Source: a virus
DNA length: 24,331 bases
Reading direction: 5' to 3' (one strand)
IMG/VR virus record: IMGVR_UViG_3300043395_002136
Location: 1-24,331 of that record
The notes under the pieces were generated by a model that saw only the letters and a list, made by a program, of their open reading frames with translations, was not told the DNA's origin and searched no databases. Position 1 is the first letter of the stretch. Every line of letters starts with the position of its first letter. The translations under genes and the position numbers were made by a program. Positions 13,200 to 24,331 of this stretch are shown here, piece by piece.

Positions 13200-13246
13200 C
13201 TAAAACAATGATGGGCGAGCAGCCCCCCTCAAGCCGCCCGCCCATC
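13200..13246 (-). terminator. Intrinsic terminator after the capsid gene
   Basis: On the minus strand GATGGGCGGGCGGC pairs with GCTGCTCGCCCATC (14 pairs, two of them G-U) around a Gly-codon-like G-rich loop, followed by ATTGTTTTA. It sits 29 bases beyond the capsid stop and before the gp11-like start. T7 has its main late terminator at the same place, where it boosts capsid over tail transcripts by partial read-through. Confidence 0.8.
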
Positions 13247-13274
13247 TGCCCAACACCACTTCTAAGGGAATTCG

Positions 13275-14213
13275 TTACGCGGTGACGGCGATTTCGACCA
13301 CCTTTTCGTCATATCGCCGCATCGCGCCCATCCGGCCCTCAACCCGCACCTGGATAGCGTGGGACAGGTCAGGCCGCACGTCGATGTAGCTCGCCCAGTT
13401 GTTCTCTGCGAAGTAAATCGCGGAAGGCAACCACATGAGGCACCGGGCCGAAGTTGAGATTGCGATTTGTTCAGTCGTCACCAAGCGCACCCCGAAGAAT
13501 TCCTCGATAACCCCGTCACTGTACGGCATGGACTTGGAATAGTCGCCGGAAGTGAAGGTGATGTCAGTGAAGAGCAAGCTCTTGTCTTTCGAGCGAAGGG
13601 CAAGCACAGGCTTTTCACTATTCGGAGACGCCATCCCGCCTTGAAGCGCGTAGGACGTGCCGAGCAACTGAAGAGCCTTGCGGATCTTGTCAACGCTCAT
13701 GCGCCCGCCGTTGGTTTCTTCCGCGCCAGTCGTGGCGTTGTAGGAGAAGTTGGCCGCGATTTGCTGACTGGCCGGGAAAGCCGAAGAGCCGCCCCCGGTT
13801 TCCCCAGTCGTCACCGTGCCACGAAGAGCCGCCAGGATGAGAGCTTCCGCCGTCCGGTTGCGAGCCATGTCAATGCTCTTCGCGATGTCCGAAGCCGGAT
13901 TGGTAATCCGGCCCAGCAAAGCCGGGTCAAACTTGCCCACCACGGAAGCGTCGTCGTACGGAGTCAGCGTCAACCACCTGGAAGACGAGGTATGGTCGCG
14001 CAACCGGGTAGCCCCGGCACGCTCCGTCATCGCTTCCATGTCGTCCCGAGCGTCAAGGTCATCGTAACGCTTGCCGTTGCCGGGGATCTCGTCCGTCTCA
14101 ATCGTGACGTAATTGCGCAGACGGTTCACCATCTGCTGGACCGCATGACCGAAGTTCTGGTTGAACAGGGTCGTGTGGTGATTCGGAATGTAGGATACTG
14201 CTAGATCAGCCAT
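13275..14213 (-). CDS. Major capsid protein (Phage_capsid_2-like)
   Basis: A 312-residue HK97-fold-type coat protein. Recognisable stretches are an N-terminal helix (LFNQNFGHAVQQMVNRLRNYV), the Arg/Thr region RLRDHTSSSRWLTLTPYDDA, the helix DIAKSIDMARNRTAEALILAALRGT with the TGETG turn after it, the FFGVRLVTTEQI strand, and a C-terminal RVEGRMGAMRRYDEKVVEIAV strand. These match the family of coat proteins found with T7-type portals in many podoviruses. It follows the scaffold gene, separated by a small beta-rich gene, and is followed by a terminator. No Shine-Dalgarno site; AACGAACT precedes the ATG. Confidence 0.88.
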   Translation of the reverse strand: MADLAVSYIPNHHTTLFNQNFGHAVQQMVNRLRNYVTIETDEIPGNGKRYDDLDARDDMEAMTERAGATRLRDHTSSSRWLTLTPYDDASVVGKFDPALLGRITNPASDIAKSIDMARNRTAEALILAALRGTVTTGETGGGSSAFPASQQIAANFSYNATTGAEETNGGRMSVDKIRKALQLLGTSYALQGGMASPNSEKPVLALRSKDKSLLFTDITFTSGDYSKSMPYSDGVIEEFFGVRLVTTEQIAISTSARCLMWLPSAIYFAENNWASYIDVRPDLSHAIQVRVEGRMGAMRRYDEKVVEIAVTA

Positions 14214-14611: not shown

Positions 14612-14696
14612 AGTCGTTTAAGTGCTTGAATTGATAGTCACCGCGCACCGTTTCCAAAAGCCGTCAAACAAATCTGAAACTTTTTTCGCGTACGCA

Positions 14697-14729
14697 GCAA
14701 CGGCCCGCTTGTGAGGAGCGAGCCGTTGC
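14697..14729. other. Long hairpin between scaffold and capsid units
   Basis: GCAACGGC and GCCGTTGC pair perfectly, with a second inner stem (CGCT/AGCG) in the loop. No T-run follows on either strand, so it may be an RNA processing or stabilising structure, or a factor-dependent terminator, rather than a simple intrinsic terminator. Confidence 0.5.
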
Positions 14730-14744
14730 CGAACGAATGGAAAC

Positions 14745-14766
14745 CACGGGGCAGACAATCCCCGTG
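14745..14766 (-). terminator. Hairpin downstream of the scaffold gene
   Basis: CACGGGG and CCCCGTG form seven perfect pairs around an eight-base loop, about 30 bases after the scaffold stop. The minus strand then reads GTTTCC, only a weak U-tract, so termination would be partial. Confidence 0.4.
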
Positions 14767-14797
14767 AGGGACGAGCTAGCACCGTCCCCGGAACCTG

Positions 14798-15616
14798 TCA
14801 AACGCCCCGCGCCATGAGGTCTTGGACCTTCCGAACGACGGACCTTTCGCCCGAGTGATACCGGGCATAATCCGGGTTTTGGGGATTCTGGATGATGTCA
14901 ATGGCTTGCGAGCGCGGGTTGGGAGCCACCATCGAGAACAACCCGTCAGGAATGCCCTTGCCCTTCAACATGCCGGGATCAGACTGAAACCATTCCCCAA
15001 TCTGCTTGAACGCCTGCGCCAGCTTCGCGTCCGCGTACTCGTCGAGGTTCACGCCAAGGAGTTTCGCCGCCTCAAGGGCTTGCTTGGCATTCTTTTCCAT
15101 GTCCTTCCCCCATACCTTTGCCAAAACCTCGCGCTCCGTCGCAATGGTCTTCGCGTCCTCTTCCTGCGCCGCCTTGGTCTGAGCTTCCGCTTCCGCCTTC
15201 CGCAACTCAGCCAGCTTCTGGACAGCAGACTTGGGAACTCCATTCTCTGCCGCCCACTTCGCGACGGACTCACTCCCCTCCCCTAGCGCGTAGTCCTCCG
15301 GTTTCTCAGCCGCGCCGATAGCCTTGCGAAATGCCGCAATCTCTTCCTTGGTTGCCTTCTCGCCGGGAACCTTCACCGCGCCGTCAATGGCCCGAGTCAG
15401 ACGGTGCAACTCCTTCACCACTTCTGGCATGGTGCGGAAATTCTTAAGAGTCGCCCCATAGTCCTTAATGTCATCCGGGAGGGAATCCGCGTGATTCTCC
15501 CTGAACGTGCCGTCAGGGTTAAGCCAGCCCGCGAAAGGTCCAGCAGGTTCAGAGGGAGGAGTTGCCGCGCCGGGATTGGTCGCGCCGTCAGTTGGTAGTG
15601 GTGTTGGTTCGCTCAT
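14798..15616 (-). CDS. Capsid scaffold protein
   Basis: A 272-residue acidic, helical protein just upstream of the capsid genes. The N-terminus is Pro/Thr/Gly-rich and disordered. The centre is a long Ala/Glu/Lys coiled coil (about 120-190, including KAEAEAQTKAAQEEDAKT), and the C-terminus is a short basic helix (RSVVRKVQDLMARG) of the sort that docks scaffold to coat. The block EKPEDYALGEGSES is common in podovirus scaffolds. ATG 15616 overlaps the preceding stop as ATGA. Composition, length and position agree with T7 gp9-type scaffolds; it should leave the procapsid on packaging. Confidence 0.85.
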   Translation of the reverse strand: MSEPTPLPTDGATNPGAATPPSEPAGPFAGWLNPDGTFRENHADSLPDDIKDYGATLKNFRTMPEVVKELHRLTRAIDGAVKVPGEKATKEEIAAFRKAIGAAEKPEDYALGEGSESVAKWAAENGVPKSAVQKLAELRKAEAEAQTKAAQEEDAKTIATEREVLAKVWGKDMEKNAKQALEAAKLLGVNLDEYADAKLAQAFKQIGEWFQSDPGMLKGKGIPDGLFSMVAPNPRSQAIDIIQNPQNPDYARYHSGERSVVRKVQDLMARGV

Positions 15617-22481: not shown

Positions 22482-22934
22482 TCATGCACCGAGCACCGTT
22501 TGGCCATTATTGCAACTCTTTTGCATTATCATCTTGGCAAGCATCGAGCCAAGATTCTCAGACGTGCTTTTCTCCGGTTCATCTTGACCCAAGCAACGCA
22601 TGTAATGCACTCGCGCTGCAAGCTGCACTTTCTCATCCTGCGAGTTCTTCGCTAGGTGCAACAGATGGGCGAGTGATTCATTGCGACTTTCAAGCCGCAC
22701 CATGCCGCCGTCTTGGTTGACTTCGAACGTGACGTGCTTTGGCTCTCTCACGCCAACCTGCGCTTGATACGTTGCAACCTGCGCTTGCACCTCTGGACGC
22801 CTCCAGGCCCGCGAAGCGTTTGCGCGGTCGGACTGTTTGACAGCCCGGCCTTGAGCCCGCGCAAATGCCTCAGGCATTGTTAACCCTTCATCTAGTCTGT
22901 AACGCACAAATAGCCTCGCGCTATCATTGGACAT
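22482..22934 (-). CDS. Terminase small subunit-like protein
   Basis: A 150-residue protein. An N-terminal helical part (DEGLTMPEAFARAQGRAVKQ, ANASRAWRRPEVQAQVATYQ) carries the 'A-S-R-x-x-R-R-P-E-V-x-A-x-V' feature typical of small terminase DNA-binding domains. A central helical region (NESLAHLLHLAKNSQDEKVQLAARVHYMRCLG) is of the oligomerising type, and the tail is disordered. It probably recognises phage DNA and delivers it to terL. It is the first gene of the leftward late cassette. Its start has no Shine-Dalgarno site and lies about three bases from the start point expected from a candidate promoter, so the message may be leaderless. Confidence 0.65.
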   Translation of the reverse strand: MSNDSARLFVRYRLDEGLTMPEAFARAQGRAVKQSDRANASRAWRRPEVQAQVATYQAQVGVREPKHVTFEVNQDGGMVRLESRNESLAHLLHLAKNSQDEKVQLAARVHYMRCLGQDEPEKSTSENLGSMLAKMIMQKSCNNGQTVLGA

Positions 22935-22990: not shown

Positions 22991-23593
22991 CTATGATGCG
23001 CGACGCATAGCTCTATAAACCGTCGCAACTGACACGCCTAGAGCCTTTGCAGCTTCCTTTTTGCTCGTCGTGTGAGAGAGTTTATCAGCAAGGTCTTTCT
23101 CGCTTATCTTCAGCGGTTTGCGCTGATTGTTGACACGTATCATCGTCTCTCGTTTTCTCACGGCCTTGACAGTCTCGCGATGTGTCTCAAGCATCGCACC
23201 GAGCAACACCTCCAGATTGAGAACTAGCAGGATAGGTGCAACTGCATGGCCCATTGCCATGACATACATTCCGGGAGACGTGAGAGAGATCGCGAGAGAC
23301 TGATCTATCACCGATTGATGCAACTGAAACACCACTGACACGCCAAGACACGCCCAGACGAGGGAGCGTGATAATTTCGCATCGCGCTTTTGCGTTGCGC
23401 TGATATATGCGCTGATTGAGAAACCTAGCGCGCCTAGATCAATCACCACGGGGAGCAACCATGGCGGTGAGAGTCGCAACGTCTCAGCGTATGAGAGGAG
23501 GCCGTGATACGACAACGCGAAAGCGCACGATGCAAGAGAAGCGAGGGTTGCGGCCTGGATGAGAGTGCTCCAGGGAAGTTTTGGGAGTGTCAT
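22991..23593 (-). CDS. DUF2637-like membrane protein with C-terminal HTH
   Basis: A 200-residue protein with four predicted membrane helices (about 10-32, 45-62, 76-94, 108-130) and a cytoplasmic tail. The Ser-Tyr after helix 1 (FALSYHGLLSYA), LPVVIDLGALGFSISAY, and the His after helix 3 (VVFQLHQSV) match the DUF2637 pattern known from mobile elements, mainly in actinobacteria. The tail ends in SKKEAAKALGVSVATVYRAM, a clear helix-turn-helix. A membrane-tethered DNA-binding protein is the natural reading. I chose ATG 23593: AGG lies six bases upstream and a leader ORF overlaps it as ATGA; a GTG frame to 23656 is less likely. Confidence 0.65.
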   Translation of the reverse strand: MTLPKLPWSTLIQAATLASLASCAFALSYHGLLSYAETLRLSPPWLLPVVIDLGALGFSISAYISATQKRDAKLSRSLVWACLGVSVVFQLHQSVIDQSLAISLTSPGMYVMAMGHAVAPILLVLNLEVLLGAMLETHRETVKAVRKRETMIRVNNQRKPLKISEKDLADKLSHTTSKKEAAKALGVSVATVYRAMRRAS

Positions 23594-23685
23594 GAGAACC
23601 TGGTGCCGTGCGCAACGTGCGATTGAGATGACAACCACACTCGGGGAGTCTCGCACGCTGGCACGGCATTAGGTTGGGGTGTCAT
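23590..23685 (-). CDS. 31-codon leader ORF overlapping the membrane-HTH gene
   Basis: ATG 23685, with AGG four bases upstream, opens a 31-codon frame whose TGA overlaps the downstream ATG (ATGA). The peptide (MTPQPNAVPACETP...) has no domain. It spans a strong RNA hairpin that would hide the downstream ribosome-binding site, so its translation could open that site. It may be regulatory rather than a working protein. Confidence 0.4.
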   Translation of the reverse strand: MTPQPNAVPACETPRVWLSSQSHVAHGTRFS

Positions 23686-23688
23686 CTC
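23597..23688 (-). promoter_or_regulatory. Leader RNA with two interleaved inverted repeats
   Basis: Stem A pairs 23604-23611 with 23661-23668 (TGCCGTGC/GCACGGCA) and 23616-23622 with 23651-23657 (CGTGCGA/TCGCACG), and extends with AACC/GGTT across 23597-23600 and 23672-23675, giving 19 pairs in all. Stem B pairs 23625-23633 with 23680-23688 (nine perfect pairs). One arm of B lies in the loop of A and the other outside it, so the two form a pseudoknot or exclude each other. Stem A covers the AGG before ATG 23593. Confidence 0.6.
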
Positions 23689-23746
23689 GCCTGGAGGCTA
23701 CGCCCGAACCTTGCTCAATGCAAGCGGCTCCATCCAACCGTCAAGA

Positions 23747-23775
23747 CGGCTCTAGGGAAACCTAGGGCCGTTTTT
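23747..23775 (+). terminator. Hairpin with T-run, plus orientation
   Basis: CGGCTCTAGG and CCTAGGGCCG pair fully (one G-U) around a GAAA tetraloop, followed by TTTTT. In the plus direction it is a textbook intrinsic terminator. On the minus strand the tail is GTCTTGAC, so it would stop the RHH gene only weakly. It overlaps the stop of the RHH gene. A plus-strand transcript needing termination here is not obvious. Confidence 0.65.
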
Positions 23776-24175
23776 GCGTACCCATGAGCCCGCGTAGCTC
23801 ATCGACGATTTCCCCGAGTGCGTTGAGCCTGTCCGATACCATGGCCGAATCCGTTTGGGAGCGTATCGTTGCCGGTCTGGAGAGAGAGCCGGTATCGTCC
23901 ACCTGAGAGCGAATGGATTGCTCTAGCTCGCCGAGGATGCCCGCTAGAGGCTGGCTAATACGTGCAGCCTGATAAGCCAATGCGCGGACATGTACGCAAA
24001 GATCCACAGGCATCACGCACGCGCCGCCTGGATCTCCGCCCGCGAGTAAGTAGGGCAAGGCGATGGAGCAGCATAGACGGAGGATTTCCGATTTGTCGCG
24101 CCCTGTAGCCGTAGCTGCCGCCTCCAGTTGAGCAACCGTCTCGGCGGGAGCGCGGAAGTTAATCGTCGTCGTCAT
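23762..24175 (-). CDS. Ribbon-helix-helix (RHH) regulator
   Basis: A 137-residue protein whose first 40 residues fit an Arc/CopG-type RHH domain: strand TTINFRAP, helix AETVAQLEAAATATG, then RDKSEILRLCCSIAL with the Gly-x-(D/S)-K-S-E turn. The remainder is helical (SQPLAGILGELEQSI, SDRLNALGEIVDELRGL), probably for oligomerisation or partner binding. RHH dimers often bind short repeated half-sites. It stands divergent to the rightward promoter at the window edge, as expected for a regulator of that region. The start at ATG 24175 has no clear Shine-Dalgarno site. It ends inside a hairpin. Confidence 0.75.
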   Translation of the reverse strand: MTTTINFRAPAETVAQLEAAATATGRDKSEILRLCCSIALPYLLAGGDPGGACVMPVDLCVHVRALAYQAARISQPLAGILGELEQSIRSQVDDTGSLSRPATIRSQTDSAMVSDRLNALGEIVDELRGLMGTQKRP

Positions 24176-24331
24176 ACTTCACACTGACAAGCCCACACGC
24201 AAAATCAAGAATCAATAAACATTCGTTATATCATAGTGACGACGTAACGAAAAATAATCGTAAAGGCGTTATATTTCGCTTGCCTCGTATTACGGTATCC
24301 ACTATAATTACCGCAACAAACGAACTATGAA
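24176..24331. promoter_or_regulatory. AT-rich divergent control region
   Basis: The plus strand carries TTGCCT (24280-24285), a 17-base spacer and a perfect TATAAT (24303-24308). It leads to AAACGAACT directly before an ATG at 24327, the first codon of a rightward gene of which only this start is visible. On the minus strand TATGAT near 24234 could serve the RHH gene. CGTTATAT occurs at 24224-24231 and 24267-24274, and an inverted TAACG lies at 24245-24249; these are candidate operators. Confidence 0.6.

Follow-up and report, generated by a model that had tools for sequence, protein, structure and literature searches.

Genes at the locus

The window, by which we mean the whole stretch of DNA that was analysed, is a 24,331-nt linear virus DNA carrying a podovirus late region (portal and terminase matches), with nearly all of its genes on the minus strand. 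Three of these genes concern us here, and relative L105, named in the first line, is introduced below.

22482..22934, minus strand: probable small terminase subunit, 3' of the DUF2637 gene (weak tblastn match to L105; position before the late genes)
22991..23593, minus strand: DUF2637 membrane protein with C-terminal helix-turn-helix (HTH), 200 aa (Pfam DUF2637 and HTH matches)
23762..24175, minus strand: upstream gene, ribbon-helix-helix (RHH; CopG/Arc-type) protein, 137 aa (Pfam RHH_1, 20.7 bits; cut-off 20.5)

The central gene encodes what an earlier note, made from the letters of this DNA, had taken for a membrane-bound HTH protein, and this description is borne out: the product matches DUF2637 (PF10935; 36.4 bits against a cut-off of 22.8, E 6e-9), contains four hydrophobic segments and has an HTH match at its C-terminus. 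Its predicted fold (mean pLDDT 80.8) consists of four long helices followed by three short ones that form a C-terminal unit.

A sigma70-like promoter, TTGCAA-16-TATGAT (22971-22944, minus strand), the second-best of the window, lies directly 5' of the small-terminase-like gene at 22934, the product of which finds its weak tblastn match at 3922-4269 of L105, within a small-terminase-like ORF that faces the DUF2637 gene of that phage. At the other end of the locus, 24176-24331 is an AT-rich divergent promoter region. Its plus strand carries a sigma70-like TTGCCT-17-TATAAT (24280-24308) and its minus strand an extended -10 site (24253-24225); a TTCGTTA/TAACGAA inverted repeat in the same region is a possible RHH operator. 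Scans of the window found no tRNA or tmRNA and no Rfam family above threshold, a weak match to BjrC68 marking the plus-strand terminator described below and no more; integron attC-like core sites were absent on inspection by eye.

Relatives of the phage

Kin were found only by alignment-based terminase scans, the first of which yielded L021 (IMGVR_UViG_3300028569_000090) and the second L105 (IMGVR_UViG_3300034198_012379) and L106 (IMGVR_UViG_3300032249_000810). Queries of phage, plasmid and genome collections with the DUF2637 protein, the small terminase, and single terminase and capsid sequences returned no useful close relative, nor did an exact search with a 17-mer from the leader of the DUF2637 gene. 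Against the window, all three phages show 42-45% identity in the terminase and 41-47% in the fibre, with the portal (40-47%) and capsid (37-38%) also matched in L105 and L106.

Each of the three carries, beside a small-terminase-like gene, a DUF2637 gene whose product exceeds the Pfam cut-off and shows an HTH-like C-terminus in translation. In all three, this gene and the late genes are on opposite strands; it diverges from the small-terminase-like gene, and comparison of the layouts suggests that it has been flipped in the window phage. None of the three has an RHH gene or a long leader directly before it. The leader is therefore not conserved with the DUF2637 gene and, as the relatives offer no alignable counterpart, there was no covariation to count. 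L106 has in addition a 252-aa HNH-type protein (L106:2941-3699, minus strand), whose two C-terminal repeats resemble the HTH of the DUF2637 protein and whose reading frame overlaps the DUF2637 gene start.

Folding of the leader

The minus-strand leader of the window phage holds three overlapping features.

23597..23675, minus strand: hairpin A, with the ribosome-site AGG in its stem (arms 23675-23651 and 23622-23597)
23625..23688, minus strand: inverted repeat B, 9 pairs (GAGATGACA at 23688-23680 with TGTCATCTC at 23633-23625)
23590..23685, minus strand: 31-codon leader frame, probably no gene (ATG 23685; TGA 23592-23590, overlapping ATG 23593 as ATGA)

The earlier note had described a 19-pair hairpin hiding the AGG before ATG 23593, a nine-pair helix formed by the hairpin loop with upstream sequence, and a 31-codon frame ending on the main start. 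The helix and the frame are present as described. The hairpin is present too, and the AGG does sit in its outer five pairs (AACCU/AGGUU), but the count has to be corrected to 23 pairs (5+8+10, with one 2x2 internal loop and one bulge). From these elements the note had derived a translation-controlled switch or pseudoknot. In such a switch the minus-strand RNA, through translation or folding of its leader, would adopt either hairpin A or helix B, and the choice would set translation of the DUF2637 protein. The local structure speaks for such regulation to a degree: the fold exceeds chance (z = -5.2 for 121 nt of the minus strand, -4.3 for the plus strand), ranking third among 606 minus-strand folding windows and first among those of the plus strand, and the ribosome site of the DUF2637 gene, at 19.9 kcal/mol, is the costliest to open of the 22 starts scored. 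The ATGA overlap, which would also fit a switch, is cheap, since a start codon and a following A suffice to create it.

We nevertheless regard the switch as very unlikely. Forcing B gives -29.4 kcal/mol against -49.6 kcal/mol for hairpin A, some 20 kcal/mol worse, and the pairing probability of B is close to zero; the linker of about 4 nt, set against a 23-pair stem, implies on geometric grounds that B and the full hairpin A cannot coexist, so that a pseudoknot fares no better. The leader frame does not resemble coding sequence (-0.23 bits per codon, under the 5th percentile for pieces of real genes, over 31 codons only) and is probably no gene. All three relatives keep the DUF2637 gene and lack the leader, the very observation that the note had named as evidence against its proposal, and the arms of B are accounted for as sites of a palindrome, TGNCA, to which we return below. 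What may survive is a plain occlusion of the start site by hairpin A, in the window phage alone. Very strong minus-strand hairpins also occur in the gene gaps at 13201-13290, 14681-14800, 1081-1200 and 1721-1830, and the one among them that lies 3' of the capsid gene resembles a terminator.

A putative plus-strand terminator

Upstream of the leader lies a further structure, on the other strand.

23746..23776, plus strand: intrinsic-terminator-like hairpin, 11 pairs, GAAA loop and T tract, overlapping the RHH stop codon

With -20.1 kcal/mol it surpasses all other terminator-like hairpins of the window, and it abuts the RHH stop on a strand that has no gene nearby. This recalls the immI region of phage P22, where a divergent promoter region, an RHH gene, a gap and an effector gene follow one another in the same manner (NC_002371; PMC12197685), and where, as in the window, an antisense-strand terminator stands at the RHH stop codon (NC_002371). 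In P22, this terminator ends sar at the arc stop, and the gap between arc and ant is taken up by sar; the terminator stem is fully paired on the antisense strand only, as it is here. By analogy, a plus-strand RNA could start inside the DUF2637 gene, cross the leader, where plus-strand folding is strongest within the window, and end at the terminator, blocking DUF2637 translation. We think this rather improbable. The window differs from P22 in its downstream gene and in having neither sar homology nor a recognisable antisense promoter: the best sigma70-like promoter just inside the DUF2637 gene scores 0.7, while the same matrix, which covers sigma70-type promoters only, gives P22 Psar 8.7, and the Rfam covariance model of sar (RF00262) gives 97.8 bits for P22 and no match in the window. 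The arrangement is absent from every relative, and an equally strong hairpin arose somewhere in 4 of 120 shuffled windows. With a terminator placed as in P22 but negative results for the promoter and the sar model, an antisense RNA is no more than possible. That the orphan terminator is a relic of gene inversion is speculative, since the relatives show no terminator of this kind 3' of their DUF2637 genes.

A TGNCA array at the DUF2637-HTH gene

The arms of inverted repeat B, in our reading two copies of one site in opposite orientation, contain a short palindrome with the core TGNCA (extended form RTGNCAY), a putative protein-binding site, and four copies of it cluster around the start of the DUF2637-HTH gene.

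23588..23592, unstranded: TGNCA site on the start codon of the DUF2637-HTH gene (plus-strand letters GTGTCATG)
23629..23633, unstranded: TGNCA site in the 3' arm of helix B, in the loop of hairpin A
23659..23663, unstranded: TGNCA site (TGGCA) in an arm of hairpin A
23680..23684, unstranded: TGNCA site in the 5' arm of helix B, at the leader ATG

Six more sites (23030, 23131, 23167, 23255, 23260 and 23336) lie inside the gene. The earlier note had offered a DNA-level site, such as a replication or recombination origin, as its alternative; the first half of that suggestion is supported, in that both arms of B, like the repeat at the start codon, contain copies of TGNCA, and nothing found here points to an origin of either kind.

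Taken alone, the four leader sites are significant at that place (p 8e-4) and would be unremarkable in a 24-kb scan made without relatives. It is the comparison that gives them weight, since an array of TGNCA sites is present in sequence at the DUF2637-HTH gene of all four phages. Observed against expected, the locus holds 10 versus 2.4 sites in the window, 40 versus 5.2 in L021, 22 versus 5.0 in L105 and 24 versus 4.1 in L106. Among 720 gapped palindromes TGNCA ranks first over the four loci, with a log10 combined Poisson p of -43.6 against -10.9 for the runner-up, and it remains first for the window and L106 alone (-14.4 against -4.3). The combined p assumes independent phages, which these are not fully, and TGNCA was defined after three of the four loci had been viewed; for both reasons the rank outweighs the p value. 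Before that definition, GTGTCA had been the most enriched hexamer common to the DUF2637 loci of the window and L021; tested then in L105 it gave p 2.5e-5, and it was absent from the L106 locus tested.

The sites also differ from their surroundings in how they are conserved. When L021 is compared with L105, identity extends to 38 of 40 and 39 of 40 positions of the TG..CA cores (95-98%), to the middle base of the motif in 4 of 10 and 5 of 10 cases, and to 32 of 51 and 30 of 51 other positions; invariant cores around a free middle base suit a palindrome bound by protein, not RNA pairing. Within coding sequence, the excess over synonymous shuffles is clear in L021 and L105 (observed count reached in 0 and 15 of 2000), moderate in the window (32 of 2000) and weak in L106 (137 of 2000). 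A helical phasing that seemed suggestive in the window (spacings of 41, 30 and 21 nt) is missing in the relatives, where no regular spacing of the sites was found.

In each of the four records, the 110 nt richest in TGNCA sites make up the 5' region of the DUF2637 gene or of its operon: 23585-23694 in the window, with sites at 23588, 23629, 23659 and 23680, and a gap with 11 sites in L021, 10 in L105 and 5 in L106. L106 has few sites at the DUF2637 start itself; its cluster lies upstream of the intervening HNH-HTH gene, and the excess reaches across that frame. As judged from these sequences, the dense part of the array has stayed 5' of the gene (in L106, of the operon) despite the apparent flip of the gene in the window. 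We note as a lesson that reading a single genome can make protein-binding repeats resemble RNA switches.

A membrane-anchored protein as probable binder of the array

We suggest, with a probability of roughly 0.6, that the interleaved inverted repeats belong to a DNA-level array of TGNCA protein-binding sites, spanning the DUF2637-HTH gene, its start codon and the sequence 5' of it, and that this array is bound by the membrane-anchored product of that gene, which would thereby regulate its own expression and tether the DNA to the membrane. The encoded protein would bind the array co-operatively and, once bound, would repress or tune its own promoter; in the relatives it probably controls the divergent small-terminase promoter as well. 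Through the array, a protein embedded in the membrane probably takes hold of the phage DNA where its gene lies, and it would keep that piece of DNA at the cell membrane. Occlusion of the ribosome site by hairpin A may add to this control in the window phage; the array itself accounts for neither hairpin A nor the plus-strand terminator. A further step, which we put forward as possible but doubtful, is that this four-helix HTH protein and the 5-bp palindromes of its own gene act like a centromere, keeping the genome at the membrane beside the terminase genes.

It is also conceivable that a different DNA-binding protein of these phages uses the array as its operator. Candidates are the RHH protein, which has relatives in two of the three related phages, and the extra HNH-HTH protein of L106, with C-terminal repeats that match the HTH of the DUF2637 protein. 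We consider this unlikely, as the array has kept to the DUF2637 gene across its apparent inversion, and the G332 record has a dense TGNCA array yet no RHH match. In the window, the sequence upstream of the RHH gene has a single TGNCA (24185) and no enrichment, which makes the RHH protein the less likely binder.

For binding by the DUF2637-HTH protein itself, the nearest documented parallel, by analogy, is SpdA2 of the Streptomyces plasmid pIJ101, which binds palindromic sites (sps) inside its own gene (PMC4170104). SpdA2 is a DNA-binding protein of a mobile element, as is proposed here for the DUF2637-HTH protein, with short palindromes in its own gene, in the case of pSVH1 at the start codon, and it affects the stability of its element (PMC4170104); as with sps, the same short palindrome is repeated in and before the DUF2637 gene across the relatives. 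The differences are that sps is a 12-bp palindrome in one to three copies (PMC4170104), whereas the TGNCA core has 5 bp and occurs in 10-40 copies, and that SpdA2 is not described as a membrane protein in PMC4170104, the membrane function residing in a separate protein, SpdB2. PMC4170104 further cites the SpdB2 of pSVH1, an integral membrane protein, likewise encoded on a mobile element, which binds double-stranded DNA as is proposed for the protein here, but its binding is reported there as non-specific, and that citation gives no known site array. Phage phi29 encodes a membrane protein, p16.7, which binds the DNA of the phage and has been proposed to recruit it to the membrane, a role similar to the one suggested here; it differs in binding displaced single strands and terminal protein and is without a site array (PMC4974454).

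The Pfam description of DUF2637 gives no function, and in the literature searched a single paper names the family. A conserved array at the phage DUF2637-HTH gene would suggest a testable job for it, namely sequence-specific DNA binding from the membrane, and the TGNCA array provides a ready probe sequence for DUF2637 proteins. Outside this phage group, the genomes with DUF2637 matches among those sampled are all actinobacterial, unlike the structural proteins of the window phage, which match phages of Gram-negative hosts.
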